Shown in pieces: positions 2,095-54,107 of a stretch of DNA of 64,000 nt; positions within the stretch are counted from its first letter, which is position 1, and every line of letters begins with the position of its first letter. The notes below the pieces were generated by a model that was given only the letters and a program-made list of their open reading frames with translations, made no database searches and was not told the DNA's origin. This DNA comes from Spinellus fusiger (taxonomy: Eukaryota > Mucoromycota > Mucoromycetes > Mucorales > Phycomycetaceae): assembly GCA_025094145.1 (NCBI GenBank), contig JALLLS010000058.1, positions 124,001 through 188,000 on the forward strand, written 5' to 3'. The position numbers were made by a program, and so were the translations under genes.

Positions 2095-3604
2095 TCTTTT
2101 CTATTTCTCTGATTCAAAGAATTTAAAAAGATATTATAAAAACTATAAAGGAAGCAATAAAGATGAATCTCTTTGTAGATCCAATGCAACAGAGAGAGTC
2201 AACAAGTTGAAAGATGAAACTTTCTTTCTTTTTGACAGGTAGAAGAGAATAAAAGAATTAAAAGTGAAGCAAGGTAGTGTATCAAAGAGACATTGTCCAG
2301 TTATTCAAACTGTATTTATAAGGACTCCCTCACTCTCACACGGAAATGGCTGCTACACCTATCTAGTAGTAGGTATAGTAAAAATAATAGTCAGCAATAT
2401 TAGCAGCAATAGCACACTAGCTCAGCCTAGGGTCAGCCTAGGGTCAGCTCACAAACACTAGACGGGACACTCCCACTAACAAATAACATTAAGATAATGT
2501 GAAATAAATAACTCAGGTATACTTGAGTCCAAAGTCTACTTCTGAGTATAATCCATCAGCCAATCCAAAACATTCGAACTGTCCACTCTATTTATGCTAT
2601 TGGTCAAAAAAAAAGAATCAATGGGAGTGGCTGAACGAAAAAATAAAAATAAAAAGAGATTAAATTCACATACTATTCTTGAACAGGGAGCATAGTGGCT
2701 TGCAGTATTAAGTCTCCTCTTCTGAGATCGACGTTTATCAAATGTGTGATGTGTTCAATGCTTTAAAATGCCCAATGACAGCAGGTTCCGAGTTGGATGT
2801 GCAACATATGAATAGAATTGCTTGGCTCTACCAAAGGAGGTTGCATTTTTGTTATTTGTATTCACTCAGGTGTTATTAGTAGCAATCAATACTATGTCTA
2901 TTCCATGGCCAGCAACCAACACAAAATATATTACATGACTAGCAATCAATACAAGATCTATTGACATAGTTGTAGAACGTGACGTTTTTCTTTCATAAGC
3001 ATAGGGTTAGATACTCAGTTGTCCTATTCTGAGCATTGGAATGGGGTTTTCCTTTTTTCCTTTTTGTTAGGAAAAGATAATAATAATAATAGTAGTAATA
3101 GTAGTAAAAATAATAGTAAAAATAATAGTAGTAATAGTAATAATAATTAATAACAATAACAATAATAAGAAATTGACATTGAGAATTTTATTCTTCAAAG
3201 TGTGTGTGTGTTGAATCCACCTGTGCTTTCCTAGTCCCACCTACACCATGGATCCATCTTCATTCAATAAGAATAGAATGACTAGAATACACTGCTGTCC
3301 TGTCGTATGGCTTGGATTCAGCTTATCCCATCGTCCTGAAAACTCAAATCAATAAAGAAAGGGACTTGTTGCTGGTAGAGTGGTTTAGTCTCTATTAACA
3401 TGGACATACATTCATCTTCATTTAATAAGAACTCAATGACACAGCATAAACTGACTAGATCCAATGCTGTCATTGTGATTTGGATCCAGTCTATCCCATC
3501 GTCTTGAAAACTCAAATCAATAAAGAAAAGGATTCGGACAGTAGTAGAATAGTTTAATCTCTATTAATAGAGACATTGGAAGAATAGAAAATGACAAGGT
3601 ATCC
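2095..3604. other. Intergenic: ATPase upstream region and 3' flank of the PPP1R21-like gene
   Basis: No convincing coding exon was found. The interval holds the divergent-side promoter of the ATPase gene, a (TAA/TAG)n tract near 3078-3150, and a short tandem duplication of AGCCTAGGGTC near 2425-2450. It also holds an imperfect tandem duplication at about 3254-3575 (separate entry). The 60-70-codon open frames here overlap the repeat and have no recognisable domain. Confidence 0.5.
3254..3575. repeat. Imperfect tandem duplication, period about 163 bp
   Basis: Two adjacent copies share blocks such as CCCATCGTC(C/T)TGAAAACTC, AATCAATAAAGAAA and TTTA(G/A)TCTCTATTAA. The first copy starts near 3254 and the second near 3417. 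It lies just downstream of the stop of the minus-strand PPP1R21-like gene, so it may be part of that gene's 3' flank or a decayed repeat. No coding function is claimed. Confidence 0.6.
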
Positions 3605-16635: not shown

Positions 16636-18694
16636 AGTCAGCAGGAAGAGATAGGTCAGTCAGTAAAGCACCGAGGAAGTGGACTATAAATAAAATAAGA
16701 CTTGTTGGAGAAAGTCACGTGTTTATAGTAGACAGGTCTTTTTTGTCGTTATGATTTCTTAAGGCTGTTGGCTGTAGAAGAAGAAAAAAAAGGGTAGACT
16801 GAGATGATCGACTGGTGATGGGTGCATTGATGTTTGTGTGTGTTTTCTAGTCTCCACCAATAGGAATTGAGGTGGGGTGTGGATTCCTGACAGGTTGCTG
16901 TCAGATGGAATAGAGTTTGTACTCTTAGTATTATGCATGTGCAGGTAAATAGTAGGTAATAATTAGGCAATAAGTATCTACTACTAGACATTATAATATC
17001 TTTTGCATGACAAAATCCAATAAGACACACTTTATTATTCTTTAGATAGTTTACCTGTAGCATGGGTTTATATTAGTTAGTCAGCTGGAGCTACAGAGAT
17101 AATTAGGGATGAGCCAGAAGGTTTGGATCTTTTATTGGTTAAGAGGAAATGGATAGCATTGAATAGCATTAAATAGTATCAGTTACTATTTATCATACGT
17201 TAATAAGGTTATGTTGTATATGGTCCAGGCAGCCTTGTTCAATGTTAGCCTATACTCTATACTGATAAAAAGGGCTTTCCAAATAAATACAAGTGATTTA
17301 TTTTTCTGTACATTAATATGGAGCAGTAGTGTTTTATTGTGCTTATCATGATATTTTGGTCATTGACTGAGCATGTATTCATAGTCTAACCTAGCTGTCC
17401 TGTAGGAAGAAGAAGAAGAAGTACGTAACTCATAGGATTCTATGACTGGTTCATCTCACTCATTCTTTGTAATAAGCTGTCATTTCTTGGTCATATCACA
17501 ATGCCACTACTTTCTGTCTGATTTCTATTATTATTTAGACAGTTAAGATGACCTTTGTACAGATAGCCATGCCCATAACAATCTGTATATCTATTTTGAA
17601 GATGGCTCACTCAAGAGGTTATTGAATATATAATTAGGATGAACCTACTTATTCAAGAAAGTGTTAATACAGCCACATCCAATTAAATTCAATGCTTTAA
17701 ATATCAGGATGAAATATATAGGACATGTTCAGCATCAAATAAAACACTTTACATTTGATATAGAGGCTTCAAACTTCAGCATACTAAGGCTCAACATCTT
17801 GTATTTATCGAAAATATAATAATACTTTTAATATTTTGTAGGGTCTCCTTTGGCATCAGTGACTGCCTGGTATACATGTCATACTTTAAACTCATCATTA
17901 TGCAAGTTCAACACCAACTCACTCCCACTCTTCTGCAAGTAGAACCTTCAAACCTCCAACATTGGTAATAGATACCCTTCTTTCTTTAATTCGTCTTTCC
18001 AAGGCATACCAAATGTGTTCAATTGGGTTTAATTCAGGGCTTTGTATGATAGTACTCAAAGCACCCTAATTTGATTGGTCTCTTTCCACCCTCTGGCATA
18101 GGCCTCAGTATAACAGCCAGCCCACTTGCCCATCAAAGCTGTTTCTCCTTGTGTTCTTCAGTGTAGGCTTGCTTGTGATGTGGAGATTCGAACCCTAACT
18201 GATTGCAGTAGCTGATCATGGTGTTTCTGATACTATTTTGAACTGTAGGCTCTTTCTCATCTCAATTACACTTGTAATCACAGTTAACTTTACTCCAGCC
18301 TTCAACTGATAACAAGTGCCCCCTATTCTTCTATCTTTTGCCTTTATATATATATATTCTCCACAACTGTGAGTTTCTGAATATCTATTTGACATGGTGT
18401 GTTGGTTTAATAATATTCAGAAAGAAAAAAGAGTTTTATACACATAAAATAAAAGTACTTTTATTATTAAATAGTCAGCAAGTATTCAATTCAATGTAGG
18501 TAATAAGTAGGTAAAATGGATTTGTTCTGTAGGTATTTGATACTCCGTCTGTAGCTTCATTACAGGGAACAACAAGAAAAGCAATGGAACAGCAAGGGGC
18601 TGAGGAGGAGTTGGAATCTATATTTCCTTTTTTGTTCTTACTTTCACTCTTTTTATTTTATTTCTTCTTCCTCTGCTGCTTATCACTGGTTGTC
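16636..18694. other. Gene-free stretch with a decayed transposon copy
   Basis: The first 300 bp are the promoter side of gamma-SNAP. From about 16960 to 18400 the sequence is homologous, in pieces, to the arms and spacer of the palindrome at 27.8-36.1 kb. For example, AAGTATCTAC(T/C)ACTAGACAT occurs at 16964 and 29627, and GTTGTATATGGTCCAGGCAG at 17213 and 30094. No intact gene was found. Confidence 0.6.
17830..18400 (-). pseudogene. Decayed Tc1/mariner-type transposase fragment
   Basis: On the minus strand, broken frames read SPELNPIEHIWYALERRIKERR, followed by a segment ending CQRRPYKIL. This is the DDE-domain end and C-terminus of Tc1/mariner transposases (the family motif is a P-D-L-N-P-I-E-type block). 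Upstream pieces such as SYCNQLGFESPHHKQAY also match the second copy at 32.4-33.3 kb. Multiple stops and frameshifts show it is dead. GGTGTG near 18395 may mark an element end. Confidence 0.75.
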
Positions 18695-23675: not shown

Positions 23676-23711
23676 CCATCTCCGCATTAGGAAAATTGAC
23701 AGCTGTAACTA

Positions 23712-25813
23712 CACACTTAAATATCTTTAGGATATAAAAGGAAATAGTCGAACTACAATTGTTTAAAAATGACCGATTTGAAAAGGTGTGAAGATAAAGT
23801 GAGATGTATTCATGTTAGTTTTTAAATAAATATTATTATGATCTATCTGTAAATATCTGAATCCCATAGGAAACCACTTTCGATGTGGTGACATATAATA
23901 TGAATACAAATATCTATTCTTTTCTACAGAAAGGAACTGGTCGGTGGAGACCCTTTAATCCTTCTTTGATTTCCCTAGACCAGTTTTTGTATCCAATACT
24001 CTATTTCTTTGTCCCCGCTAGAGACCAAACTACTACAGATTCATCTCTCTAGTGGTCCTGTTGATAACCACAGTGCCCTTTATTACAGAATAAAGGATAT
24101 ATTTTACAAAGTTACATAGTATAGATCTTGAGGCTACTTTTATATATTTTTAAGCTATAAGGATCAAAGCTATACGATAATAACACCTCTGTAAATTCAG
24201 AGATGGATCTCATTCTCTTGTCCTATGTATGTTTCAAGGAAAGAGAGAAACTTTATTTACAACAAAATCACTTTCTGGAATTCTATGGCCTTGAAATACA
24301 GGACCAAGATTATACACACTATAGGACAGGACAGTTGCCCTTCCCAGTCTGCTTGGATGTTCTATGAAAGCCATAGCTATTAATTGAGAATAGAAAAATA
24401 GTCAAATTCATAGTCAAATTCATAGTAAAAGAAATGCCAAACTAATATAAAAAGTGTAGTTGTCTACATCCATAATAAAATAGACTTTGATCCAAACAGC
24501 TTCCTAGAGTATAAACAAGATAATCTTTAGAGACTTGAGTAGCTGACTGTTTCTTATTCTCGACTTGTTTTCTTTGGTTGGCTAATGTGTTTGAAAAGAT
24601 TCTTCTCACTGTCTGTCTGTTTTAGCATTGACTATGGACTGTGTAATTAAACACTATAAAGTTGGATAAAAGGAAGGAGTAAACCTGACATTGCGACTCA
24701 ATCACTGCATTTAATGTTTAACATGTGCTATCCATAAGCCCACAGTATTTGCAGTATAGCACTACTTGAGAAAAGTTTAAGACATACTGAATTAACTCTA
24801 ATAATCATTACCTAGTAAATAGAACTAAACTCACTTATGTTAAGAACAGTATATCCATTCATTGCCTCAATATTCATCATCACCTCAACTGTCTCATTGT
24901 AACTGTTCTCAACAATAGTACTTAATGATTACAAAGTATTGTTTCTAATACTGGACTTTAGGATCAAGGCAAATAGAGTGTGAATTGTTTGACTTGTGAA
25001 TTTTATGAGTGGAGGCTAGTGTATACATTACCAGAATAGAGAAAGAAAGATTATTATTTGTTTTGATAATCCCATCCTTTTGTTATTTCTCACACTTCAC
25101 ATACAACTTAACACCCAAGTACTCTTCAATATGAGCATAACTGAGCAAGGCAATGTACTATTATTAACCAAGAGAAACAATAGGAGGTAATAGACACTAC
25201 CAAGGACTATTCTAGTGATAAAAAGGTAAGCAGTGTCTTTATCTGGGCTTGAGTTCAATGTATTCCATAAGACATAGTATTGACTCTTCTTCTAATAGAT
25301 GATATTGGCTTATTATTCTTAAGACAAGTATTAATTACAAGGTAAGCATACTATCTCTCTTATTGAATTATTACTAATACACTCTTCTGTTATTAGATAA
25401 ATAGAGACTCTTTCTCAAGTCAGTCTCAGGCGGTCTTCTTCCTTCCATACTGTCTAAGGTGTCTAGGCTGTCTAGGGTATACTCCTGAGCATAGTTATCT
25501 ATCTCCTAAGGATAAAGCACAAAGCCTTTAGGTTGTGGATTCTATTGCTATGAAGGAATACGCCTAGAACAGCAGTAGCTATTGTAATAGTATATTATTA
25601 CAATAAACAATTTTATCCATCAACAATTTTATTCATAAACAATATATTCTATTGATAATACAATTTGATATTGAGGTATCCATAAAAAGAAATAATAATT
25701 TGGATACTCACAAACCTTTTGGTTTTAAACACAGTTCCATAAAAGGCAAGAAATTTTAGACGTAAAAGGAAGGAGATATCCTCGCCTAAAAGCCAGAAAA
25801 ATCTCCTGGTGTG
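23712..25813. mobile_element. TA-flanked TIR element, copy 1 (internally deleted)
   Basis: Starts CACACTTAAATATCTTTAGG after TA (23710-23711) and ends with the complement of CACACCAGGAGATTTTTCTG before TA (25814-25815). It is about 2.1 kb and has no intact ORF. It is collinear with copy 2 (47519-50511) over 23712-23915 and again from about 23950 to the end, with long identical stretches (about 24010-24790 against 48690-49460). It lacks roughly 860 bp that in copy 2 carry the Fanzor fragment. TA flanks suggest a Tc1/mariner-type insertion site. It inserted about 240 bp upstream of RNR1. Confidence 0.8.
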
Positions 25814-26302: not shown

Positions 26303-27646
26303 CTAGTAGCCATTAGAGAATTTAAGCTGATCTTCTACTAACTGAGCAATTTTAACAGCAAAGGCTTGCTTGGCAACATCATCAATCTTCAGATGATGAT
26401 GCTTCTCGAAAGTATCTACCAATGGCAAGTAGTTGTCAGATATATAAACAGGCAACTCGGCATAAATGCCTGGTGCAAGTTCAATTCTGAATGTAAAGAG
26501 AGCTTTCTTCTCTTGGGGAGGTGCCTGTTGGACACTAGGTGCAGGTGCAGGTGTGGGAGCAGGTGTGGGAGGTGCTTGGAGGTTCTTTGGCGCGTATTTA
26601 GAAGCAGCAGCACCTTGTGAGTAGTCAACAGTAGATCTGATGGGAGAAGCAGTGATGGGTGCTGGTGCAGGTGTGGGAGCAGGTGTGGGAGGTGCTTGGA
26701 GGTTCTTTGGCGCGTATTTAGAAGCAGCAGCACCTTGGCTGAATGTAGGCTGTTGGAATACAAAAGGTGCTGGTGGTTGATATTGCTGCTGCTGCTGCTG
26801 CTGTTGTTGTCGTTGTTGTTGTGGCTGTTGCTGGTACTGTTGCTGGTACTGTTGCTGCTGTTGGTGTTGGTGTTGCTGCTGTTGTTGGTGTTGTTGTTGT
26901 TGGGACGCATACTTGGAAGCAGCAGCACCTTGGTTATAACCAGCTGTGGGTAGTGCATATATACTCTTATTACTATTGACAGGTGCAAGTGTTGTCACAG
27001 GAGCAGGAGTACTGCTCTCCCAGAAGGGTTTATCAGAGAGCTCGGCAGATCCCCAAGCAGTACTTCCAGGAATCACTCGGCGAGTACGAACGGTCGAAGG
27101 AGCACTGGGACGAGGAGGAAATGTGATGTTTTTGACTGCCTTTGGTTTTGGTGCGCCAGATCCACTACCTCTTCCTTTACTCTTGGATTTTTCACCAGCA
27201 GCCTTGGGTATAGGCTGTTTCTTGAGACGCTGGTTTAAAATATGGTGTTCATCCACAGGCTTGAAATTGGCTCCTTTTCTGTGAAGATTGCCTGAACCAA
27301 CACCTCCTGCCTTGAGCTTAACATTGGGGTCAATAAGAGAGTTCCAGTCACCCATATTCACTGTGAGTTCTGGTGGTGCATTAGGTTTGTCAACAGGCTG
27401 GGTACCCCAAGAGCCAATTTGAAGGGGGGCATAGTCATCCTCGTCCTCATCAGTGTATTCATCCTCATCATCACTTTCAACAGGGGGAATAGAGCCCCAG
27501 TTGTTGGCTTGAGGAGGTGCTTGTGGAGGAGGCGCTCTTGCTTGTGGTGGTGTGTGACCTACTGGTGCAGCAGTGTTCATTGAAGCCCAGGAACTGCCTA
27601 AGCTTCCTGCTGTGTTTTTAAGGAAGAAATCGTTAGGCTTATTCAT
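26303..27646 (-). CDS. Unknown low-complexity protein with poly-Q tract and QGAAASKYA repeats
   Basis: Single-exon gene of 447 residues. The ATG at 27646 (MNKPNDFF) is the first in frame. No known enzyme family is recognised. Order of parts: a Pro/Ala-rich N-terminus; an acidic ESDDEDEYTDEDEDDY block (residues about 58-72); a basic KSKSKGRGSGSG stretch; a TRRVIPGSTAWGSAELSDKPFW segment; a Q/H-rich region; and three repeats of (N/S)QGAAASKYA. The C-terminus is a globular-looking domain of about 70 residues (FTFRIELAPGIYAELPVYIS to the end) that is not low complexity and is probably the conserved part. The last two QGAAASKYA units lie in near-identical 80-bp direct repeats, evidence of recent expansion. 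A role in RNA or condensate biology is only a guess from composition. Confidence 0.8.
   Translation of the reverse strand: MNKPNDFFLKNTAGSLGSSWASMNTAAPVGHTPPQARAPPPQAPPQANNWGSIPPVESDDEDEYTDEDEDDYAPLQIGSWGTQPVDKPNAPPELTVNMGDWNSLIDPNVKLKAGGVGSGNLHRKGANFKPVDEHHILNQRLKKQPIPKAAGEKSKSKGRGSGSGAPKPKAVKNITFPPRPSAPSTVRTRRVIPGSTAWGSAELSDKPFWESSTPAPVTTLAPVNSNKSIYALPTAGYNQGAAASKYASQQQQHQQQQQHQHQQQQQYQQQYQQQPQQQRQQQQQQQQQYQPPAPFVFQQPTFSQGAAASKYAPKNLQAPPTPAPTPAPAPITASPIRSTVDYSQGAAASKYAPKNLQAPPTPAPTPAPAPSVQQAPPQEKKALFTFRIELAPGIYAELPVYISDNYLPLVDTFEKHHHLKIDDVAKQAFAVKIAQLVEDQLKFSNGY
26535..26910 (-). repeat. Coding repeats: duplicated QGAAASKYAPKNLQ unit and CAG/CAA poly-Q tract
   Basis: At about 26540-26617 and 26655-26737 an almost identical block encodes SKYAPKNLQAPPTPAP. 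From about 26777 to 26910, CAG/CAA triplets on the minus strand encode a long Gln run with interspersed His, Tyr and Arg. Confidence 0.85.
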
Positions 27647-27811: not shown

Positions 27812-30414
27812 TACACACCTAAAGATTTTTAGGATATGAAAGTAAATACACGGACAATACAATAAAACTCTTCTTCTTATTGGCTGATGTGTTTGAAAAA
27901 GAGTATTTTAATAAAGTATTGACATTTTTGGGAAATAAAATAGTGTAGAAATGTAGTATGGTTCAAAAAAGAGTTATGTGTATCTTGGTTTAGTGCAGCG
28001 ATAACTAGACTGGATTCTTTCTTTTTATTTTTTATTTTTGATGTTTTGATGTTTTGGTCGATTGGCTACTACTAGCTAGATGTTTGTCTGGTTGTTGTTG
28101 ATTAATAAAGATCAAAAGCTTCATTCTAAGAAACAAAAGTAAGCTATTGGCATTCTGGTTTTCCACAGCAGAAGTACTTTCATTTGAATAATTAGTTATG
28201 CAACATTGGGGTAACTATGACTCTCTCCTCGAGGTATCTTGCAAACATTTCACAATTGACTGTTGAAGATGTATGTCCTGATAGAGATAACTCGGCTTCT
28301 ATTCAATACAAGTGATTGAGTTCTTTACTGCTATCATCTTCAGAGCACGTTCCATGAAGAAAAGATAAAAGATGGGTTGACCTTTCTCTTTTTATACTAT
28401 TTCTGCTTTATAACTGGTTTCCACATGCCATTGATTCAATCCGTGATTTGAAAACCAAGAAGTTGTGCCAAGGCATAAAGCTTGTATCTCTACCAATGGA
28501 AACTGTGAATTCCACGGGTTTTCTATGCACATATACAGTCCCATACAATAAGTGAGTGGACAGCAATTTTTTATTTTTATTTTATTATTTTCTTTTGGAA
28601 AATAAAGGCATATCCATCAGTCAAAGATGTTTATAATAAAGGATTCATGGAATAACGCGGGATTCAGAATAGTTGTTCTTTAGATGATTGTCTACATTAT
28701 TATTATAGAAACATTGCTCAGTACTTTGTAACAGAGTCTATTTTTAATCACTCTAGTCCCTTTATCATTGCCCACAATTGTAAAATAGAATTCGTCAGAC
28801 CAAACAACCTTGTTTTCACATCATTCATATTTCTCAAATGAAGTGTAATTATTTGCATAGGGTTTCTGCAAACAGACAAAATAATCTCCAGTTTTGAAGT
28901 AGATAAGCATAACTGAACAAGGCAATGTGCTATTATTAACAATGCAAAGCAATAGAAGGAGGTGGTAGATACCACCAAAGGCTATTTTTGAGAGATATAT
29001 AAATATAAAAGGTAAGCAGCGTCTTCATCTGGGCTTGATCTCACTATAGTCCACAAGAAATAGTACTGACCCCTCTTCTTCTAATAGATAGTCTATAGCT
29101 TATTGTTCTCAAGACAAGTATAAAGTACAAGGTAAGCATACTATCTTTCTTGATTGAACCATTAATCTTTCTTGATTGAACCATTAATAATGCACTCTCT
29201 TGTTATTAGATAAGCTAAGACTCTTTCTCAAGTCAGTCTTAGGCGGTCTTCTTCCTTCTGTACTGTCAACTGTGTCTAGGGCATACTTCCAAGCATAGTT
29301 ATCTATCTCCCTATAATAACGTATTAGGCTTTTAGGGTGTAGAATCTATTTCAATAAGGAATACATATAGAACAGCAGTAGCTATAGTAGTTGTATATTA
29401 CTAGCTATAATTTTATCATAAACAATTTCATTCATCAACACTATATTCTATTAATAATACAATTTGATAGTGAAGTATACTACAAAAGAAAATAATAATT
29501 TGGATATTTGTAAACCTTTGATCTTAAACAGCGTTACATAAAAGGTGAGGTCTTATTGTAACCTAAAAGGAAGGATTTATCACCGCTTAAAGGCCAGAAA
29601 ATCTTTGGATGTGTAGTAATTTTTATAAGTATCTACCACTAGACATTATTATGTCTTTTTGCATGATAAAATTCAATAAAACACACTATGTCGCTTTTTA
29701 GATGGTGTCGTTAATGGCTTTTTGGGTTCAAAAGTAGTTGGTTAGTTAACGCACGATTCACTCTGTTCTTTTGTATTCAGCTTGTTTGTCACTCTTTTAT
29801 ACTTCTACTCCACTCTAATGATTATTACAAATAGAATAACTTGGCTCAGATAACCACCAAAAGGCACACATTCTAATGCAGACTGTTGTACTTTTATACT
29901 ACCTTTAAAAGATCTATCTACTGCATTCAAATACACTACAGCTTATCATAATTGCTTCATTTCATACCATTGATTTTGTAACTGTTTTTTATTTTTACAA
30001 TTTGCCAATCTCTTGTTTCTTTAATATATAGAGTCTGAGGTAACAGCATTCTGTACATCACATAGTAGATCTCTTCTCAGTGTGTCTTGGCTATGTTGTA
30101 TATGGTCCAGGCAGCCTTGTTCAATGTTAGCCTATACTCTATACTGATAAAAAGGGCTTTCCAAATAAATACAAGTGATTTATTTTTTTTATATATCAAT
30201 CTGAAACAGTAGTGTTTTATTGTGCTTATCATGATATTTTGGTCATTGACTGATTCATCTCACTCATTCTTTGTAATAAGCTGCCATTTATTGGTCATAT
30301 AAGAATGCCACTACTTTCTGTCTGGTTTCTATTATTATTTAGACAGTTAAGATGACCTTTGTGCAGATAGCCATACCCATAACAATCTGTATATCTATTT
30401 TGAAGATGGCTCTC
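27812..30414 (+). repeat. Left arm of the 8.3-kb inverted repeat (2603 bp)
   Basis: Every position x pairs with 63928-x on the other strand. Landmarks checked include the identical 76-codon frame at 28748-28978 (-) and 34950-35180 (+), and the segment CATATACAGTCCCATACAAT at 28531 with its complement at about 35378. One difference was noticed near the outer end (A/T at 27831 against C/G at 36097). Outward, pairing stops at 27812/36116. Inward, it stops after GATGGCTCTC at 30414/33514, where the left side continues TTTTCC and the right-hand complement continues AAGAGG. Confidence 0.93.
27814..29613. mobile_element. TIR element copy 3a (left palindrome arm)
   Basis: Starts CACACCTAAAGATTTTTAGG after TA (27812-27813) and ends with the complement of CACATCCAAAGATTTTCTGG before TA (29614-29615), 1.8 kb. 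It shares its last about 700 bp (from about 28905) with copies 1 and 2, for example AAGACAAGTAT(T/A)AA(T/A)TACAAG and TCTTTCTCAAGTCAGTCT. Its first kilobase differs, so it is a related subfamily. No intact ORF. Confidence 0.75.
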
Positions 30415-32439: not shown

Positions 32440-33300
32440 ATCACTATTGCATTTATAGAGTCATGGAAACCCCTAAAAAGTGAATTAGATGGATTCAAGA
32501 CACACTGAAAGATGTTATTAGAAAGGATCCATTTGCCTCATACAACCAACTGACATTGGGAATATTGAAGTTTGAGGTTGATATAAGTAGAGACATCCTT
32601 ATCAGCTACTGTAATCAGTTAGAGTATGTATCCTTTTCTGTTGACCACAAGCTAGCTTTAACTGAAAAACACACAAAGAGAAACAGCTTTGTTGGGCTAA
32701 AGAACATGCCAGTTGGACAAGTGATTAGTGGAGAGGTATCATTTAGTCTGATGAGTCAAAATACATTATGAAAAAAAAGCAATAGAGATGCCTGTGTAAT
32801 TAAAATAGTTAAAGAAAGATATAGTTATAATCCCATTGATCCAACGATGTAGTTTGGTGGTGATGGTGTGATGTTTTAGAGCTGTTATTAGGCTAATGGA
32901 TTTGACTCATTAGTCGTTGTTGATAGCAGTGTAAACTAAGACGAATACATCAGAATTTTGGCTGGTGAGTTCCATCCTTGGTTCATGAAATTGTATCAGA
33001 AAGAAAACAGCGAGTTACTGTTACAATAAAAGAGTGCTAGCTGTCATACTGGGGCCTATGCTAGATGGTGAAAAGAAACACATCAGATTAGGGTTATTTG
33101 ATTACTAGCCTACACAAATCCCTGACTTGAACTCAATTGAACATATCTGATACGCCTTGGAAATATGAATTGAATAAATAAGGGTATCTATTATCAATGT
33201 AGAAAGTTAGTGTTGAACTTGCACAACGATGAGTTCAGAGTATGACAGACAGATGTCAGGATGTCACTGATGCCAAAGGAGACCATACAAGATATTAACT
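32440..33300 (+). pseudogene. Decayed Tc1/mariner-type transposase in the palindrome spacer
   Basis: Broken plus-strand frames read WIQDTLKDVIRKDPFASY (HTH/linker region), then SYCNQLEYVSFSVDHK, ASCHTGAYARW, and a DLNSIEHIWYALE-like block near 33130-33170. The order is that of a Tc1/mariner DDE transposase. It ends in the CQRRPYKIL-like C-terminus seen in the 17.8-18.4 kb copy. Many stops and shifts; not functional. Its downstream flank (33300 onward) runs into the right palindrome arm. Confidence 0.75.
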
Positions 33301-33513: not shown

Positions 33514-36116
33514 GAGAGCCATCTTCAAAATAGATATACAGATTGTTATGGGTATGGCTATCTGCACAAAGGTCATCTTAACTGTCTAAATAATAATAGA
33601 AACCAGACAGAAAGTAGTGGCATTCTTATATGACCAATAAATGGCAGCTTATTACAAAGAATGAGTGAGATGAATCAGTCAATGACCAAAATATCATGAT
33701 AAGCACAATAAAACACTACTGTTTCAGATTGATATATAAAAAAAATAAATCACTTGTATTTATTTGGAAAGCCCTTTTTATCAGTATAGAGTATAGGCTA
33801 ACATTGAACAAGGCTGCCTGGACCATATACAACATAGCCAAGACACACTGAGAAGAGATCTACTATGTGATGTACAGAATGCTGTTACCTCAGACTCTAT
33901 ATATTAAAGAAACAAGAGATTGGCAAATTGTAAAAATAAAAAACAGTTACAAAATCAATGGTATGAAATGAAGCAATTATGATAAGCTGTAGTGTATTTG
34001 AATGCAGTAGATAGATCTTTTAAAGGTAGTATAAAAGTACAACAGTCTGCATTAGAATGTGTGCCTTTTGGTGGTTATCTGAGCCAAGTTATTCTATTTG
34101 TAATAATCATTAGAGTGGAGTAGAAGTATAAAAGAGTGACAAACAAGCTGAATACAAAAGAACAGAGTGAATCGTGCGTTAACTAACCAACTACTTTTGA
34201 ACCCAAAAAGCCATTAACGACACCATCTAAAAAGCGACATAGTGTGTTTTATTGAATTTTATCATGCAAAAAGACATAATAATGTCTAGTGGTAGATACT
34301 TATAAAAATTACTACACATCCAAAGATTTTCTGGCCTTTAAGCGGTGATAAATCCTTCCTTTTAGGTTACAATAAGACCTCACCTTTTATGTAACGCTGT
34401 TTAAGATCAAAGGTTTACAAATATCCAAATTATTATTTTCTTTTGTAGTATACTTCACTATCAAATTGTATTATTAATAGAATATAGTGTTGATGAATGA
34501 AATTGTTTATGATAAAATTATAGCTAGTAATATACAACTACTATAGCTACTGCTGTTCTATATGTATTCCTTATTGAAATAGATTCTACACCCTAAAAGC
34601 CTAATACGTTATTATAGGGAGATAGATAACTATGCTTGGAAGTATGCCCTAGACACAGTTGACAGTACAGAAGGAAGAAGACCGCCTAAGACTGACTTGA
34701 GAAAGAGTCTTAGCTTATCTAATAACAAGAGAGTGCATTATTAATGGTTCAATCAAGAAAGATTAATGGTTCAATCAAGAAAGATAGTATGCTTACCTTG
34801 TACTTTATACTTGTCTTGAGAACAATAAGCTATAGACTATCTATTAGAAGAAGAGGGGTCAGTACTATTTCTTGTGGACTATAGTGAGATCAAGCCCAGA
34901 TGAAGACGCTGCTTACCTTTTATATTTATATATCTCTCAAAAATAGCCTTTGGTGGTATCTACCACCTCCTTCTATTGCTTTGCATTGTTAATAATAGCA
35001 CATTGCCTTGTTCAGTTATGCTTATCTACTTCAAAACTGGAGATTATTTTGTCTGTTTGCAGAAACCCTATGCAAATAATTACACTTCATTTGAGAAATA
35101 TGAATGATGTGAAAACAAGGTTGTTTGGTCTGACGAATTCTATTTTACAATTGTGGGCAATGATAAAGGGACTAGAGTGATTAAAAATAGACTCTGTTAC
35201 AAAGTACTGAGCAATGTTTCTATAATAATAATGTAGACAATCATCTAAAGAACAACTATTCTGAATCCCGCGTTATTCCATGAATCCTTTATTATAAACA
35301 TCTTTGACTGATGGATATGCCTTTATTTTCCAAAAGAAAATAATAAAATAAAAATAAAAAATTGCTGTCCACTCACTTATTGTATGGGACTGTATATGTG
35401 CATAGAAAACCCGTGGAATTCACAGTTTCCATTGGTAGAGATACAAGCTTTATGCCTTGGCACAACTTCTTGGTTTTCAAATCACGGATTGAATCAATGG
35501 CATGTGGAAACCAGTTATAAAGCAGAAATAGTATAAAAAGAGAAAGGTCAACCCATCTTTTATCTTTTCTTCATGGAACGTGCTCTGAAGATGATAGCAG
35601 TAAAGAACTCAATCACTTGTATTGAATAGAAGCCGAGTTATCTCTATCAGGACATACATCTTCAACAGTCAATTGTGAAATGTTTGCAAGATACCTCGAG
35701 GAGAGAGTCATAGTTACCCCAATGTTGCATAACTAATTATTCAAATGAAAGTACTTCTGCTGTGGAAAACCAGAATGCCAATAGCTTACTTTTGTTTCTT
35801 AGAATGAAGCTTTTGATCTTTATTAATCAACAACAACCAGACAAACATCTAGCTAGTAGTAGCCAATCGACCAAAACATCAAAACATCAAAAATAAAAAA
35901 TAAAAAGAAAGAATCCAGTCTAGTTATCGCTGCACTAAACCAAGATACACATAACTCTTTTTTGAACCATACTACATTTCTACACTATTTTATTTCCCAA
36001 AAATGTCAATACTTTATTAAAATACTCTTTTTCAAACACATCAGCCAATAAGAAGAAGAGTTTTATTGTATTGTCCGTGTATTTACTTTCATATCCCAAA
36101 AATCTTTAGGTGTGTA
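33514..36116 (-). repeat. Right arm of the 8.3-kb inverted repeat (2603 bp)
   Basis: Reverse complement of 27812-30414. On this side the sequence stays homologous to the repeat family past the inner breakpoint: 33300-33513 matches the complement of about 17620-17830. This arm therefore probably holds the original arrangement and the left arm is the truncated inverted duplicate. The outer end coincides with the transposon terminus GGTGTGTA. Confidence 0.93.
34315..36114. mobile_element. TIR element copy 3b (right palindrome arm)
   Basis: Mirror image of copy 3a with the same TA-flanked ends. The outer TIR is the exact outer limit of the palindrome on both sides. Confidence 0.75.
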
Positions 36117-45048: not shown

Positions 45049-47518
45049 ATTGGGGTCTTGTTTTCATTTTACTCTTGCATTTTTTATTCTTTCTTTCTAC
45101 CATTTCCTTTCTTTCTTAATAGGATGTACATTTTATTTTCATTGTTAAAAAAATAGACATACCTAATCTATTTTGATCAATCTATTGGGTAATACTAATA
45201 AAAAGGCAATATGTTACCTTTTGTAACTGTAATGGTTGTGTTTATCTTACTGGAAATCAAACTATTAAATGATTTGATATTGATGTTATCTATGCCTTGG
45301 TACAGTTTATGGATTAATTCAATGAATAGAAACAAACAAACAAATCACTCTAAAGTAGTCACTATAAAAGATGCCAGATTCTATTGTCTTTGAACTTGAC
45401 TTGTATTCTTCTTTTGATATAGCAATGTTTTTATGAGTTTCTATCTGATCCACTAAGAAAAGAAAGACTCACCAAAAAAAAGAGAAATCAGGCACAGAAC
45501 ACAAATGATAAAGATATTGCATCCTGTCTCTCTAAAAGAGTATGTTCAATTTCTCTCTTTTCTTTATTGAATAAAAGCCCTTGTCTTTTTTAGGTCTCTA
45601 TTTAATCTACCTACTACACTGAGACCTCATGAAATACACGTCAAGATATACATGCATCACATACTACATCACATAATAAGATACTCTTATTAAGAAACAA
45701 TTCTTTTATCACATGTTCCATCTTTTGAGTTCCATCTTTTGCATCAGTGACAGTTTGGCATCTCCGTTTCATGCTAGCAATGAGGTGGATGGTGACACTT
45801 TGATTCATTTCATCCAATCCCCTGCACTAAGATATCCTCCAGTCTTTCCTTATTGATAAAATTGCATACACTTTATTTTATTTTCACTGTAAGACCAAAG
45901 GTGCTCATAAACTCAAATAAGTCATTGCCTTGTGTCTTTTACTTTCTGGACTCTCTTTCTCATTCTTCTTTGTTATCTCATTCTGATTACAATAGTGTAA
46001 AGATGAATCTCCTTGAATAGAATTCGTCAGTACAACTCTTTTGATCTAAAGCATCATTAGAGAAAGAAGAAAAAGAACGCAGTGTTTGGAGCATTTGTAT
46101 TTGTATTTGTATTTGTATTTGTATTTTTATTTATTTATTTAAAAAAAGTACCTCTGTTAAAATATAAGTGTGAGACTTCTTTTCTGTCATTTTCTATTCC
46201 TTGGAATAAGAAATCTGATGATAATTATGATTTTAAAAAGTAGTATTGTATCTATGATTCCAGGGATTGATAGATAGTTTGTACAACAAAATACTATCTC
46301 AACTATTTTCGATCGAATTATTTTTGTAACTGTGTGTGTAATATATTCTGCCGTTGTGAACTAGAGTTGTCCTCCCTTTCTTTTTCTTTTTCTTTTCCAT
46401 AAGCACAGAAATGGAGATGGGTGGAATATTTATGAATACAAATTTTGGATCCCATGCAAAATAAAAATAAAAAATAATTTTTATCGTGGGAAATATATTC
46501 AGACAGCAACTGCAGATGATACAAGCCTTCTTGTAAGCTACTATTTAACAGCTCAAAGTATTTAACTTGTTTAGGGTATGGTATGCCAATCTTGCAATAA
46601 AGAGTGCATTTACTCTACAGGAACCTTTTATAGATACATTTCTATTTCTATTTCTATTTCTATTTTTATCAAATACTTTAGCTACACTATTTCAAGTAAA
46701 TACATAAAGAAAGGATAAAGAAGATAGATACAATAAGCATTTGATATGTAGAATTAGATGTTCGAAACTGATGAGTGTCAACATGGGAATACAGAACACC
46801 GAACGGATCAATGTCTTTCTATGGCGATTATAATACTAAAAAGGAATACGTTCAGAAACTCGTACGATCCTGAGAACATAAACACAGCTATTCTACTAGC
46901 AGCTTCTGGTCTTTTAAAACGTGTTGATACTAGGCAGCAAAAGAAAGATGAAAATAGTTTGGAAGTTTAGAATGTATTAACAGAAATCTTTTGATGATAT
47001 ATGAAAGTAGAGTTATTCTCATTCTCTTATCCACCACTAGCAACTTCAATGAACAAACATTCAACAATGGGCCCTGTCCTAAAATAGTGAATAGATGTAG
47101 CTTAATGAACACTCTATAGAAGCAGTAGTCGAGTAAACTAGACATGTTTGCCAGTTCACAGTATGTATCATCACACACAGTAGAAGAGTTAGACGGCATC
47201 GGTAGGATATACATTCTCTGAGAATAAAAGGGTCATGGAATGGTTGGCATAACAAATAAATACACCAGGAAATAATCCCGATTGGCTACTGGGTGATCAT
47301 ATTTGTAAGGAACTGAAGATGTTGGTGGCAAACCAAGAAACTCTATATTTTAATTGTCGGTATATCTATCAGTAAATTAACATTACTAAATCATTAGATT
47401 CCAAAAAATAATCTCCGGAGAGTCCATAGACAATCATTAGTCATCTATTCTTACTATGTAATAGGTTATCCAGTTTATTTAGACACTTTAGCATGGTACT
47501 TTTATTACATCCTTTCTA
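45049..47518. other. Intergenic, 2.5 kb, with a transposase scrap and microsatellites
   Basis: Microsatellites: ATTTGT at about 46096-46131 and ATTTCT at about 46640-46665. A short minus-strand trace of a Tc1 C-terminus lies at about 45740-45800 (separate entry). No gene was found; the 60-90-codon frames here lack known domains. Confidence 0.5.
45735..45805 (-). pseudogene. Short Tc1/mariner transposase C-terminal scrap
   Basis: The minus strand reads LIASMKRRCQTVTDAKDG, resembling the C-terminal SMPRRCQAVIKAKGG-type block of Tc1 transposases and the CQ-R end of the copies at 17.8 and 33.2 kb. It is short and could be chance; the rest of the element is not visible. Confidence 0.4.
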
Positions 47519-47736
47519 CACACCAGGAGGTCTTTAGGATATAAAAGGAAATAGTCGAAATACAATTGTTTAAGAAATAACATCGATTTGAAAAGGTGTG
47601 AAAATAAATTAAGATGTATTCATGTTAGTTCTTAAATAAAGATTATTATGTTGATTTACCTGTAAATATCTGAATCCCGAAGGAAACCACTTTCGATGTG
47701 GCGATATATGATATAATACGAATAAGAATATCTATT
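47519..47736 (-). ncRNA. Candidate omega-RNA / right-end region downstream of the Fanzor ORF
   Basis: In TnpB and Fanzor systems the guide RNA comes from the 3' end of the ORF plus the adjacent element end. Here the about 218 bp between the Fanzor reading frame and the element terminus are strongly conserved between copy 1 (23712-23915) and copy 2. Conserved blocks include TTTAGGATATAAAAGGAAAT and GAAACCACTTTCGATGTGG. Conservation of a non-coding end where the interior was lost fits either a guide RNA or merely transposase-binding sequence. No transcript evidence is available. Confidence 0.35.
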
Positions 47737-48157
47737 CTTATGTGACTGTATAGATACCCTTTGATGCATTCACATCTCTGTTCTAAACAATTCCGCAACT
47801 TTGGCAAGCGCGGATATTGTTGAAATTTACTAATACCTCAGTGAGGATATTTGTGTTGCAAGTATGGCAGATCTTGAGAACAAAAAAAGAAAACAAAACA
47901 GAGTAACTGTTAAAAGAGCTTTTCATATTGAGTGAGAGGTCAATCATGCTTACCCTCGATGTAAAGAACTCATCGACATCAACCAGAAGAAGATCACCAC
48001 TCTTTTGTCTCTTTTTCAGTGATTGATATAATATTCTTGTCAAACCAACACGATGGCCTTTGAACTTGACAGCATCCTTTCCTTTCATTCTTGCACCATA
48101 AGCAACAACTGGCAGCTTGGTAGGATCATACTCCAATCCTTTTAGGTGCCAATAACC
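47737..48157 (-). pseudogene. Fanzor (eukaryotic TnpB-like OMEGA nuclease) C-terminal fragment with premature stop
   Basis: Fanzors are RNA-guided RuvC nucleases related to TnpB/Cas12. Two exons are visible: 47954-48157 (68 codons, ending at AGG before GTAAGC) and from 47872 downward. Exon one ends with the RuvC-flanking motif VDVDEFFTSR. Exon two continues ICHTCN, then RACQSCG (two CxxC pairs of the OrfB zinc ribbon), then IV, a TAG stop (47783-47785), then NRDVNASKGI in the same frame. NRDVNA is the RuvC-III Asp motif. In TnpB/Fanzor proteins a bulky residue, usually Trp, often precedes NRD, so TGG to TAG is the simplest explanation of the stop. The upstream RuvC-I part is not recognisable; frames up to about 48600 are degraded. 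The gene is dead or nearly so in this copy. Confidence 0.8.
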
Positions 48158-50513
48158 CTTTTCAATAATAGAATAGTAGTAAGAATAATTAGTTCGAGAT
48201 GTATTAATGTACTCTATGTGTGTGTGTCGTATTACCCTTGCACTGGCACTTTCTTGCCTTTGTAATGGACTCACTGGGTTTACTATAGTAAAAATATATA
48301 CAATAGAAACTGACTGACATGTCAGACACAATAAACATATACAAACACTTACCAGATCACAACTGTTGGCTCTTATGCCAGACAAAGGCAAACAAAATAA
48401 AGAGGGTAGAAGATATGGAGAAAAACAGACAGTGTAGTTGGCAGGTTTCTATATCCGAACAGAAGAGAACAAAACTAAATTTCACAAGTCATTTGCTTAA
48501 TCAGAACTACCAAAGTAATGCAGACTACAACTCCATTCTAGAAAGAAAAAGAATTGCTTAAAGAACAGTTGCCCAGTTACTCATTGTGCTCAAATCGTGT
48601 GTTGTGTTCCTGTTCATGTACCCTCTTTGATTTCCCTAGACTAGCCTTTGTACTAATACTCTATTTCTTTGTCCCTGATAGAGACCAAACAACTACAGAT
48701 TCATCTCTCTAGTGGTCCTGTTGATAACCACAGTGCCCTTTATTACAGAATAAAGGATATATTTTACAAAGTTACATAGTATAGATCTTGAGGCTACTTT
48801 TATATATTTTTAAGCTATAAGGATCAAAGCTATACGATAATAACACCTCTGTAAATTCAGAGATGGATCTCATTCTCTTGTCCTATGTATGTTTCAAGGA
48901 AAGAGAGAAACTTTATTTACAACAAAATCACTTTCTGGAATTCTATGGCCTTGAAATACAGGACCAAGATTATACACACTATAGGACAGGACAGTTACCC
49001 TTCCCAGTCTGCTTGGATGTTCTATGATAGCCATAGCTATTAATTGAGAATAGCAAAATAGTAAAATTCATAGTAAAATTCATAGTAAAAGAAATGCCAA
49101 ACTAATATAAAAAGTGTAGTTGTCTACATCCATAATAAAATAGACTTTGATCCAAACAGCTTCCTAGAGTATAAACAAGATAATCTTTAGAGACTTGAGT
49201 AGCTGACTGTTTCTTATTCTCGACTTGTTTTCTTTGGTTGGCTAATGTGTTTGAAAAGATTCTTCTCACTGTCTGTCTGTTTTAGCATTGACTATGGACT
49301 GTGTAATTAAACACTATAAAGTTGGATAAAAGGAAGGAGTAAACCTGACATTGCGACTCAATCACTGCATTTAATGTTTAACATGTGTTAACTATAAGCT
49401 CATAGTATTTGCAGTATGACACTGCTTAAGAAAGATGTATTACAGAACTTATAGAGTTAACTCTAGTGATTATTGTCCAGAAAAGAGAACCAAACTCACT
49501 TATATTAAGAACATTGTGTTCATTTATTGACTCAATATTCATAATCACTTCAACAACTATCTTATTGTAACTGTTATTAACAATAGTACTTAATGATAAC
49601 AGGGTATTGTTTCTAATACTGTCTCTTAGGCTCAAGCCAAATAGAGTGTGAATTGTTTGACATAAATTTTGACTTGTGAATTTTATGAGTGGAGGCTAGT
49701 GTATTCATTACCAGAATAGAGAAAGAAAGATTATTTGTTTTGATATTTCCCTATATTTGTTATTTCTCACACTTCACATACAACTTAACACCCGAGTACT
49801 CTTCAATATGAGCATAACTGAGCAAGGTGATGTGCTATTATTAACAAAGAGAAATAATAGAGAGAAGTTGTAGATACTACTAGAGGCTATTTTAGAAGTG
49901 AAAAAGGTAAGCAATGTCATCATCTGGGCTTGAGCTCATTGTAATCCATAAGACATAGTACTGATTCTTCTTCTAATAGATAATATATAGACTATTATTC
50001 TTAAGACAAGTATTAATTACAAGGTAAGCATACTATCTCTCTTATTGAATTATTACTAATAAACCCTTCTGTTATTATATAAGCTAAGTCTCTTCTCAAG
50101 TCAGTCCCAGGTGGTCTTCTTCCTTCTATACGGTCTAGGCTGTCTAGGGTATACTCCTGAGCATAGTTATCTATCTTCCAAAGATAAAGCATAAGGATTT
50201 TAGGGTATAGATTCTATTGCTATGAAGGAATATACCTAGAACAGCAGTAGCTATAGTAATAGTATGTTTTTAGCTACAGTATTTTTAGCTATATTATTAC
50301 AATAAACAATTTTATTCACAAACAATTCTATTCATAAACAATATATTTTATTGATAATACAATTTGATATTGAGGTATCCATAAAAAGTAAGAAAATTTT
50401 GGATACTCGCAAACCTTTGATTTCAAGCACAGTTTCATAAAAGGTAATAAATTTTAGATTTTAAAAGGCGAATATATCATCGCTTAAAGGCCAGAAAAAT
50501 CTCCTGGTGTGTA

Positions 50514-53125: not shown

Positions 53126-54107
53126 TTGTCTAACTGTAATTAAAGATACAATGCATTGTGGATTGTAAACAATATCTTTCAATTAGAGATTGTCAATCGT
53201 TTTGATGTAAACTTTACAACTGTGTCTTGCATCATAAAGAGATACAGAAAAATAAGAGACTTCAAGGCTAAAAGATTCACTGGAAACAAATCCAACTTTA
53301 CTGAGAGAGATAAGAGAAAAGTATTTCTATATTATTTCAAGACACTAAAGGAACTCCACTAGAGCATCACCACTAAAGTGTTCATAATGGGATTTCAGAA
53401 GATGATAAAGAAAATTGGCTTATTTTTCTTACAGAGTGGTGAAGAGACCTACTCTTACCACTAATCACAAGAAAGTGAGACTTGACTAGGCTAAAGACCA
53501 TATCCACTGGACCAATGAGCAGTGCTGTACCATCATCTTATTAGATGAGTTAAAGTACCAGCTCATCTCCAACAACAATTTTATTATAGAGATACGAAAG
53601 AAGAAAAAAGGGATGACCCCAAATAATGATAAGGCCACTATGATGTTTGGTGGTAGTGATGTGATGGGGTGAAAAGACTATGCCCTTTACAGAGCAGCGT
53701 TGGTAACCCTAGATACATTGAGATTTTAAAAGAAGAATACCTTCCTGAGCTGACCCGCTTTTCTTAAATCAACTCAGAAATAGGTTATGTTCTTTAGAAA
53801 GATATTTGAAGAAGAAAAAAGTGCAGGACAGTAAAAGAATAGAAGAAAAAAGCGAGCATGATCACGAGAAAGAACTGGTCTTTACAAAACCCTGACCTAA
53901 TATCCCTGTAGAACACCTTTGGGATATTTTGAACCAAAAAGTTCAAAAGAGAGTGGCTGCCTCAATTACTTTCAGAGATTTAGAGGCTATCTTTTTTTTT
54001 GGATGGCAAAATAAAATAAAAATAGAGATGATCAACAACCTCACTGAGAGCATATCTCGAATATACAAGGCTCTCATTAAAGCAAGGAGTAGTAGTACCA
54101 GATACTA
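53126..54107 (+). pseudogene. Decayed Tc1/mariner-type transposase
   Basis: Plus-strand pieces in the right order: an HTH reading RFDVNFTTVSCIIKRYRKI; then TERDKRKV; then RPTLTTNHKKVRL; WTNEQCC; then the DDE end VEHLWDILNQKVQKR; and finally LTESISRIYKALIKARSSST with a terminal RY, the classical Tc1 C-terminus. In-frame stops (for example after KVRLD and MG) and shifts show it is inactive. About 460 bp downstream, at 54541-54564, lies AAAGACCAGAATACTCTTGG followed by GTGTA, a diverged version of the TIR shared by copies 1-3. Confidence 0.85.

Follow-up and report, generated by a model that had tools for sequence, protein, structure and literature searches.

A Fanzor relic in a TA-flanked inverted-repeat element of Spinellus fusiger, and a one-sided C beside the ends of its family

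The Element and Its Fanzor Exons

We analyzed a stretch of 64,000 nucleotides of the fungus Spinellus fusiger (assembly GCA_025094145.1, contig JALLLS010000058.1, positions 124,001 to 188,000; hereafter the window), in which a mobile element carries the remains of a gene for a Fanzor, a eukaryotic RNA-guided nuclease. The element spans 47519-50511 (2993 bp) and has inverted ends (CACACCAGGAG), its termini reading CACACCAGGAGG.../CACACCAGGAGA..., with TA on both sides (47517-47518 and 50512-50513). In the following, the B end is the one beside the Fanzor stop, 3′ of the gene, and the A end is the opposite one, 5′ of the gene; the two diverge after their first 11 bases. An earlier reading, made from the sequence only, had proposed a Fanzor relic between inverted repeats on the grounds of minus-strand exons encoding VDVDEFFTSR, CxxC...CxxC and NRDVNA in this order. 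These motifs were read directly and confirmed by script, as were the ends and their TA flanks. Its boundary at position 48620 had to be moved, since the Fanzor-derived part stops at about 48253-48260 and 48620 reaches into the 5′ region of the element. The features, several of them defined by comparison with a longer relative (C164:164483-167913, see below), are as follows.

47517..47518, no strand: TA flank of the B end, 3′ of the Fanzor gene; TA is likewise found at most other ends read
47519..47547, plus: B-end terminal inverted repeat (TIR) CACACCAGGAGGTCTTTAGGATATAAAAG; 627 genome matches to a 21-base pattern
47548..47737, minus: 3′ untranslated region (UTR), occurring in truncated and in longer copies
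47738..47872, minus: Fanzor exon B, with the zinc ribbon CHTC...CQSC, an in-frame TAG (47783-47785) and then NRDVNA (RuvC-III)
47873..47953, minus: predicted intron, 81 bp, GT-AG (GTAAGC...CTCAAG)
47954..48166, minus: Fanzor exon A, with VVAYG... and VDVDEFFTSR bearing the alternative catalytic Glu
48167..48260, minus: sequence preceding exon A, probably the terminal part of the Fanzor intron before it (blastn against C164:164483-167913)
about 48253-48260, minus: internal-deletion junction (blastn against the longer element C164:164483-167913)
48260..50481, minus: 5′ part of the element, of which 48260-48749 matches the A-end side of the C164 element, upstream of its Fanzor frames
50482..50511, minus: A-end TIR CACACCAGGAGATTTTTCTGGCCTTTAAGC; its exact 32-base pattern occurs 151 times in the genome
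50512..50514, minus: TA flank of the A end preceded by C (5′-CTA towards the element), a putative trace of a target-adjacent motif (TAM)

Exon A (minus strand, 47954-48166) reads IEKGYWHLKGLEYDPTKLPVVAYG...LLLVDVDEFFTSR and exon B (47872-47738) reads ICHTC...ACQSCGIV*NRDVNASKGIYTVT*, with the spacing ICHTC-x17-CQSC. After splicing, and with the stop written as X, the window copy scored 44.7 bits (E 1.6e-11) against PF07282, the Pfam TNB family (cut-off 26.3), and a composite of the family reached 52.9 bits. The unspliced frame of 221 amino acids matched no Pfam family, so that splicing is needed to reveal the TNB match. Among the Pfam families PF07282 alone passed its cut-off, the weak matches to Vps36 NZF and further zinc fingers all falling short of theirs. 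In NCBIfam the best matches of the composite were TnpB models, all below their whole-protein cut-offs (guided_TnpB: 35.7 bits, E 5.6e-9, with a whole-protein cut-off of 100), and its top match in the PDB was the TnpB-like protein L79 (E 1.3e-4). A profile search of the PDB returned five weak matches only (LaTranC, L79, Cas12m; best E 0.0042), none of them named SpuFz1, the Fanzor of Spizellomyces punctatus.

In the window copy (EFFTSRICHTC) the Glu of VDEF stands six residues ahead of the first CxxC (E-x6-CxxC). According to PMC10711439, an alternative position of the RuvC-II Glu sets Fanzors apart from typical TnpBs and forms, together with DPG in RuvC-I, the Fanzor fingerprint. The Asp of RuvC-III (NRD) is also present in NRDVNA, yet downstream of the stop codon. 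As we read the sequence, VVAYG would hold the conserved Gly that, with a conserved Glu, is given for Fanzor1 in PMC3627910; these two residues and the carrier TIR element would fit Fanzor1. We are therefore in little doubt that the window copy derives from a Fanzor gene, and it is dead: a TAG (47785-47783) occupies the place of the Trp that precedes NRDVNA in other copies, and the RuvC-I part is deleted. Both the Fanzor/TnpB assignment of the earlier reading and its word relic are borne out. The label Tc1-like, which it also used, agrees with the TA flanks and the inverted ends and with nothing further; the transposases that we found (C140 and C133, see below) sit in separate elements.

The Family in the Genome

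The genome of S. fusiger (Mucorales; Phycomycetaceae, the family to which Phycomyces also belongs) comprises 38.1 Mb in 197 contigs and contains 627 B ends (311+316) at up to 3 mismatches to the 21-base pattern, compared with 0 for a reversed-pattern control. The A-end pattern gave 1405 matches at up to 2 mismatches, which represent roughly all family ends of both kinds, because B ends differ from this pattern by exactly two bases. In all, 109 related pieces were found (40 scored of 1693 candidates), their identity, with the window itself set aside, being 71-96%. Counted per exon, the C-terminal exons had 277 matches (150 scored of 876 candidates) and the frames flanking RuvC-I had 48 (all 54 candidates scored).

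The element at C164:164483-167913 (3.43 kb) is degenerate; bounded by one end of each kind, B and A, it contains pieces of RuvC-I, exon A and exon B. By eye, its frames upstream of RuvC-I may represent the N-terminal part; two of them had no Pfam match above cut-off. The window element aligns to it on both sides of a deletion of ~2.1 kb (47519-48253, the 3′ part of the gene, and 48260-48749, upstream of the frames), and we therefore regard the window copy as an internal-deletion derivative with extra sequence. Positions 48750-50401 are absent from the C164 element, and beyond 48749 up to the A-end TIR we recognized no gene. The window copy thus shows what has been described for ghost elements: ends common to longer elements, absence of a working nuclease gene, and a retained 3′ end. 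In 19 of 42 aligned rows, some of which are duplicated loci, exon B stops at the position of the window's stop codon, indicating that the frame was already broken when this lineage amplified.

The search for intact copies that the sequence-only reading had recommended did yield longer copies keeping RuvC-I, none of which, among those read, was intact. In 11 copies the RuvC-I motif reads DPG (1), DPD (2), DPS (1), DLG (5) or DQG (1), and it is frame-broken in one. DLG is one base away from DPG (CTT and CCT), and DPG is, judging from these sequences, the likelier older state. The presence of DLG in the first two RuvC-I copies had prompted the idea of an odd, TnpB-like Fanzor, which was dropped after nine further copies.

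A One-Sided C Beside the TA

TA lies beside 94-98% of the ends (33 A-type and 53 B-type). The base outside it differs between the two kinds of end. At ends matching the exact patterns, C precedes TA at 105 of 151 A ends (another base at the remaining 46) and at 53 of 122 B ends (Fisher p 1.6e-5), compared with 19% of the TA steps in the window.

The asymmetry also appears when both ends of the same element are considered. Pairing of exact ends, for which 100 of the 105 C-bearing A ends and the other three lists in whole were available, gave 31 pairs, including a mispairing that joined two neighboring elements (4019 bp on C115; both of these elements are counted separately). Flanks were further read in 24 A-B elements of the fetched loci, with one A-A element left out. 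After dropping the mispairing and four elements common to both sets, the union comprises 50 elements; segmental duplicates were removed among the fetched loci only. C stands outside the TA at the A side in 47/50 and at the B side in 19/50. All 28 discordant elements have C only at A and 0 only at B (p 7.5e-9). Pairs of up to 1.4 kb behave in the same way (C at A in 15/16, at B in 7/16), and this rule in copies too small to hold the gene suggests that Fanzor acted in trans. C is also present at both ends of one A-A element and at a single end of each of three B-B elements, too few cases to draw on.

Among exact A ends, C is found at 76 of the 121 without an exact B partner, compared with 29 of the 30 that are paired (p 1.1e-4); of those 121, 5 were unlisted, so that their partner was not looked up, and for others the B end may have diverged.

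A second copy of the family lies within the window (23711..25813, plus strand). It is a ghost in which a B-end/UTR piece is joined to the 5′ part, with Fanzor exons A and B gone, and it has C outside the TA at both ends.

A Possible Trace of Fanzor Activity

By analogy with SpuFz1, the 5′-CTA beside the A end is probably the trace of a Fanzor TAM. For Spu-1 of Spizellomyces punctatus, PMC10432273 reports a CA conserved upstream of the 5′ repeat at SpuFz1 full and ghost loci, and a measured TAM of CATA for SpuFz1. The mechanism that we envisage for Spinellus would run as follows. A transposase acting in trans would have moved the elements, while the 3′ (B) end and its flanking DNA would have made a guide RNA whose guide corresponds to the DNA lying past the B end. 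The omega-RNA would accordingly be encoded in 47548..47737 plus the TIR, with the guide outside the TIR. Fanzor from then-intact copies would have cut empty target sites bearing 5′-CTA followed by a match to the guide, and repair from a filled copy would have kept or restored elements at CTA sites, nuclease-less copies included. Insertions at CTA could thus have been re-cut when empty and refilled by repair, and insertions elsewhere could not. In its full form, this amounts to a trans-acting retention system: hundreds of copies lacking a nuclease would have supplied guide RNAs from their 3′ ends, a few Fanzor-coding elements would have used these to re-cut emptied 5′-CTA sites, and the survival of insertions would have been determined in this way. 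We give this full reading a probability of roughly 0.4.

If it is right, the activity of Fanzor on the transposons of this genome is recorded there at population scale. The natural role of Fanzors is described as an open question (PMC10432273). Because the family comprises hundreds of insertions, long as well as deleted, and its two ends can be told apart, that role becomes testable by counting flanking bases, the base at each end being a record of what was kept. For a Mucorales Fanzor, the 5′-CTA rule predicts a specific TAM, and a nuclease acting in trans would be expected to leave this rule at copies without a nuclease gene as well.

Several results weigh against the proposed mechanism. No intact long Fanzor was present among the copies read. 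The B end showed no unusual folding: the mean z was +0.4 to +1.3 for lengths of 60-240 nt (13 of 49 copies), and the 242 nt of the window copy gave z -0.63. One 116-nt stretch reached z -2.2, on which we do not lean, and RNAalifold on the UTR of 45 copies found one 5-bp hairpin. Rfam returned no match at gathering score. Searches for an empty site that would prove TA to be the target duplication found none, nor was a transposase of the family found. The 50 paired elements are a sample of several hundred, made up of exact-pattern copies and fetched loci with good matches. Finally, C is above background at the B side too (19/50, p 0.0018), and the integration step therefore has some preference of its own.

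As to the transposase, the DDE_3 search scored 150 of 1544 candidates, and PF03184 had no match in this genome nor in any control genome, which makes it uninformative. Two transposases of this genome match 12 of the 84 fetched loci. Except at L062, these matches fall either in the nested C133 element (L073, L031, L041) or outside the limits of the family element. In L062 the family homology stops at 2033 and a transposase piece starts at ~2697, the far end of the element being beyond the fetched sequence. The piece (2697-3158) is 78% like the C140 transposase element, and the Fanzor of this locus keeps more exons. Two candidate partners were rejected. The C133 transposase (L073, C133:217900-220000; a DDE_3 frame of 321 amino acids) belongs to a nested element, flanked by TA and with its own repeats of ~31 bp, that is inserted in a B end. 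The C140 transposase, Tc1-type by eye, has its own 32-bp repeats, 87.5% alike. Matches to it occur in the window at 53165-54105 (the strongest), 32517-33295 and 17922-18044.

An inverted copy just downstream mirrors the RuvC-III codons in 7 of 45 copies (L050, L032, L023, L028, L014, L039, L020), a lower bound since the 81-nt cut misses these codons in many other copies. In these seven, the 81-nt stretch (exon B/3′ UTR) folds at -26 to -40 kcal/mol, compared with -17 in the window copy.

Alternative Explanations

The one-sided C could instead reflect an end-specific target preference of the transposase, which would place the A end next to C, Fanzor being a dead passenger. This is the main rival, and we hold it to be less probable than the TAM reading. 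The excess of C at both sides, merely larger at A, would follow from it; since A and B ends differ after 11 bases, a transposase could distinguish them; and the lineage of the window copy went on amplifying despite its stop codon. However, a target with two-fold symmetry is the expectation for DDE transposases that insert at TA, and a transposase of this kind as the sole chooser of sites should leave the bases outside the two TAs alike; a split of 28 to 0 would not be expected from it. The lower share of C at unpaired exact A ends, expected if some of them are without a B end, is a further, weak point against it. In SpuFz1, moreover, the one-sided flank is part of the measured TAM.

Returning to the gene itself, the C-terminal exon pair might be a short protein under selection in its own right. 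The frame of exon A has few stops, its ratio of nonsynonymous to synonymous polymorphism (pN/pS) is 0.29-0.39 in 27 copies, and variants common to at least 3 copies fall 31/18/38 on codon positions 1/2/3. The scan is nevertheless indecisive because values down to 0.22 occurred in the element's other frames and strands, and singletons in exon A are uneven by codon position as well (18/33/16). Both exons are open, with ribbon and NRDVNA, in just 3 of the 42 aligned rows, two of these three having Lys for the catalytic Glu, and the 19 rows that end at the window's stop codon argue in the same direction, as does the lack of RuvC-I in an exon-pair fragment. We rejected this explanation on the pN/pS controls and the 42-row alignment, and consider it very improbable.

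An origin of the exons from an unrelated zinc-ribbon protein, to which the sub-cut-off zinc-finger matches might point, is effectively refuted by PF07282 as the only family passing its Pfam cut-off, by E-x6-CxxC, and by RuvC-I in linked frames of the longer copies.

Comparison with Known Systems

Earlier work has described Fanzor1 in TA-flanked elements devoid of transposase, the occurrence of Fanzor1 in Mucorales, and ghost elements (PMC3627910 and PMC10432273). Like Spu-1, for which the authors report the same (PMC10432273), the Spinellus family has a Fanzor gene between inverted repeats with no transposase found between them, and conserved bases outside the 5′ repeat. As in the Spinellus family, gene-less loci outnumber gene-bearing ones in Spu-1 (134 ghost loci vs 42 with full or partial Fz). 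Unlike Spu-1, the Spinellus family is flanked by C plus TA, has more copies and has introns in the gene; the final exons survive in many of its deleted copies, and its omega-RNA is only putative. It also resembles the mariner-like elements with Fanzor1 only, such as PUl-4, in carrying a Fanzor, probably a Fanzor1, alone in TA-flanked inverted-repeat elements (PMC3627910). The same source lists Fanzor1 for three Mucorales (Phycomyces, Mucor and Rhizopus), and the name Spinellus is absent from its text. With prokaryotic TnpB (IS200/IS605, IS607) the family shares the TNB zinc ribbon and the order of the C-terminal motifs, and it differs from it by the alternative Glu, the introns, the eukaryotic host and the TIR element. 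In the literature searched, which left most subscription journals outside, we found no paper on a Fanzor in Spinellus, and the papers naming Spinellus fusiger are by their titles not on Fanzor. The copy numbers and the one-sided flank notably set the Spinellus family apart within a known kind of element.

Other Repeats

Another repeat with a related start, TACACACCCAAAGATTTTTGGG, occurs in the downstream flank of L039 and at L027, L072 and L074. Within the window, 27812-30414 and 33514-36116 form a 2603-bp inverted repeat of 99.96% identity, its arms ~3.1 kb apart, and in each arm a segment matches the 5′ part of the element at 74%. Several family matches elsewhere in the genome likewise occur as inverted pairs. 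An 80-bp direct repeat of 98.75% identity is located at 26538-26617 and 26658-26737.
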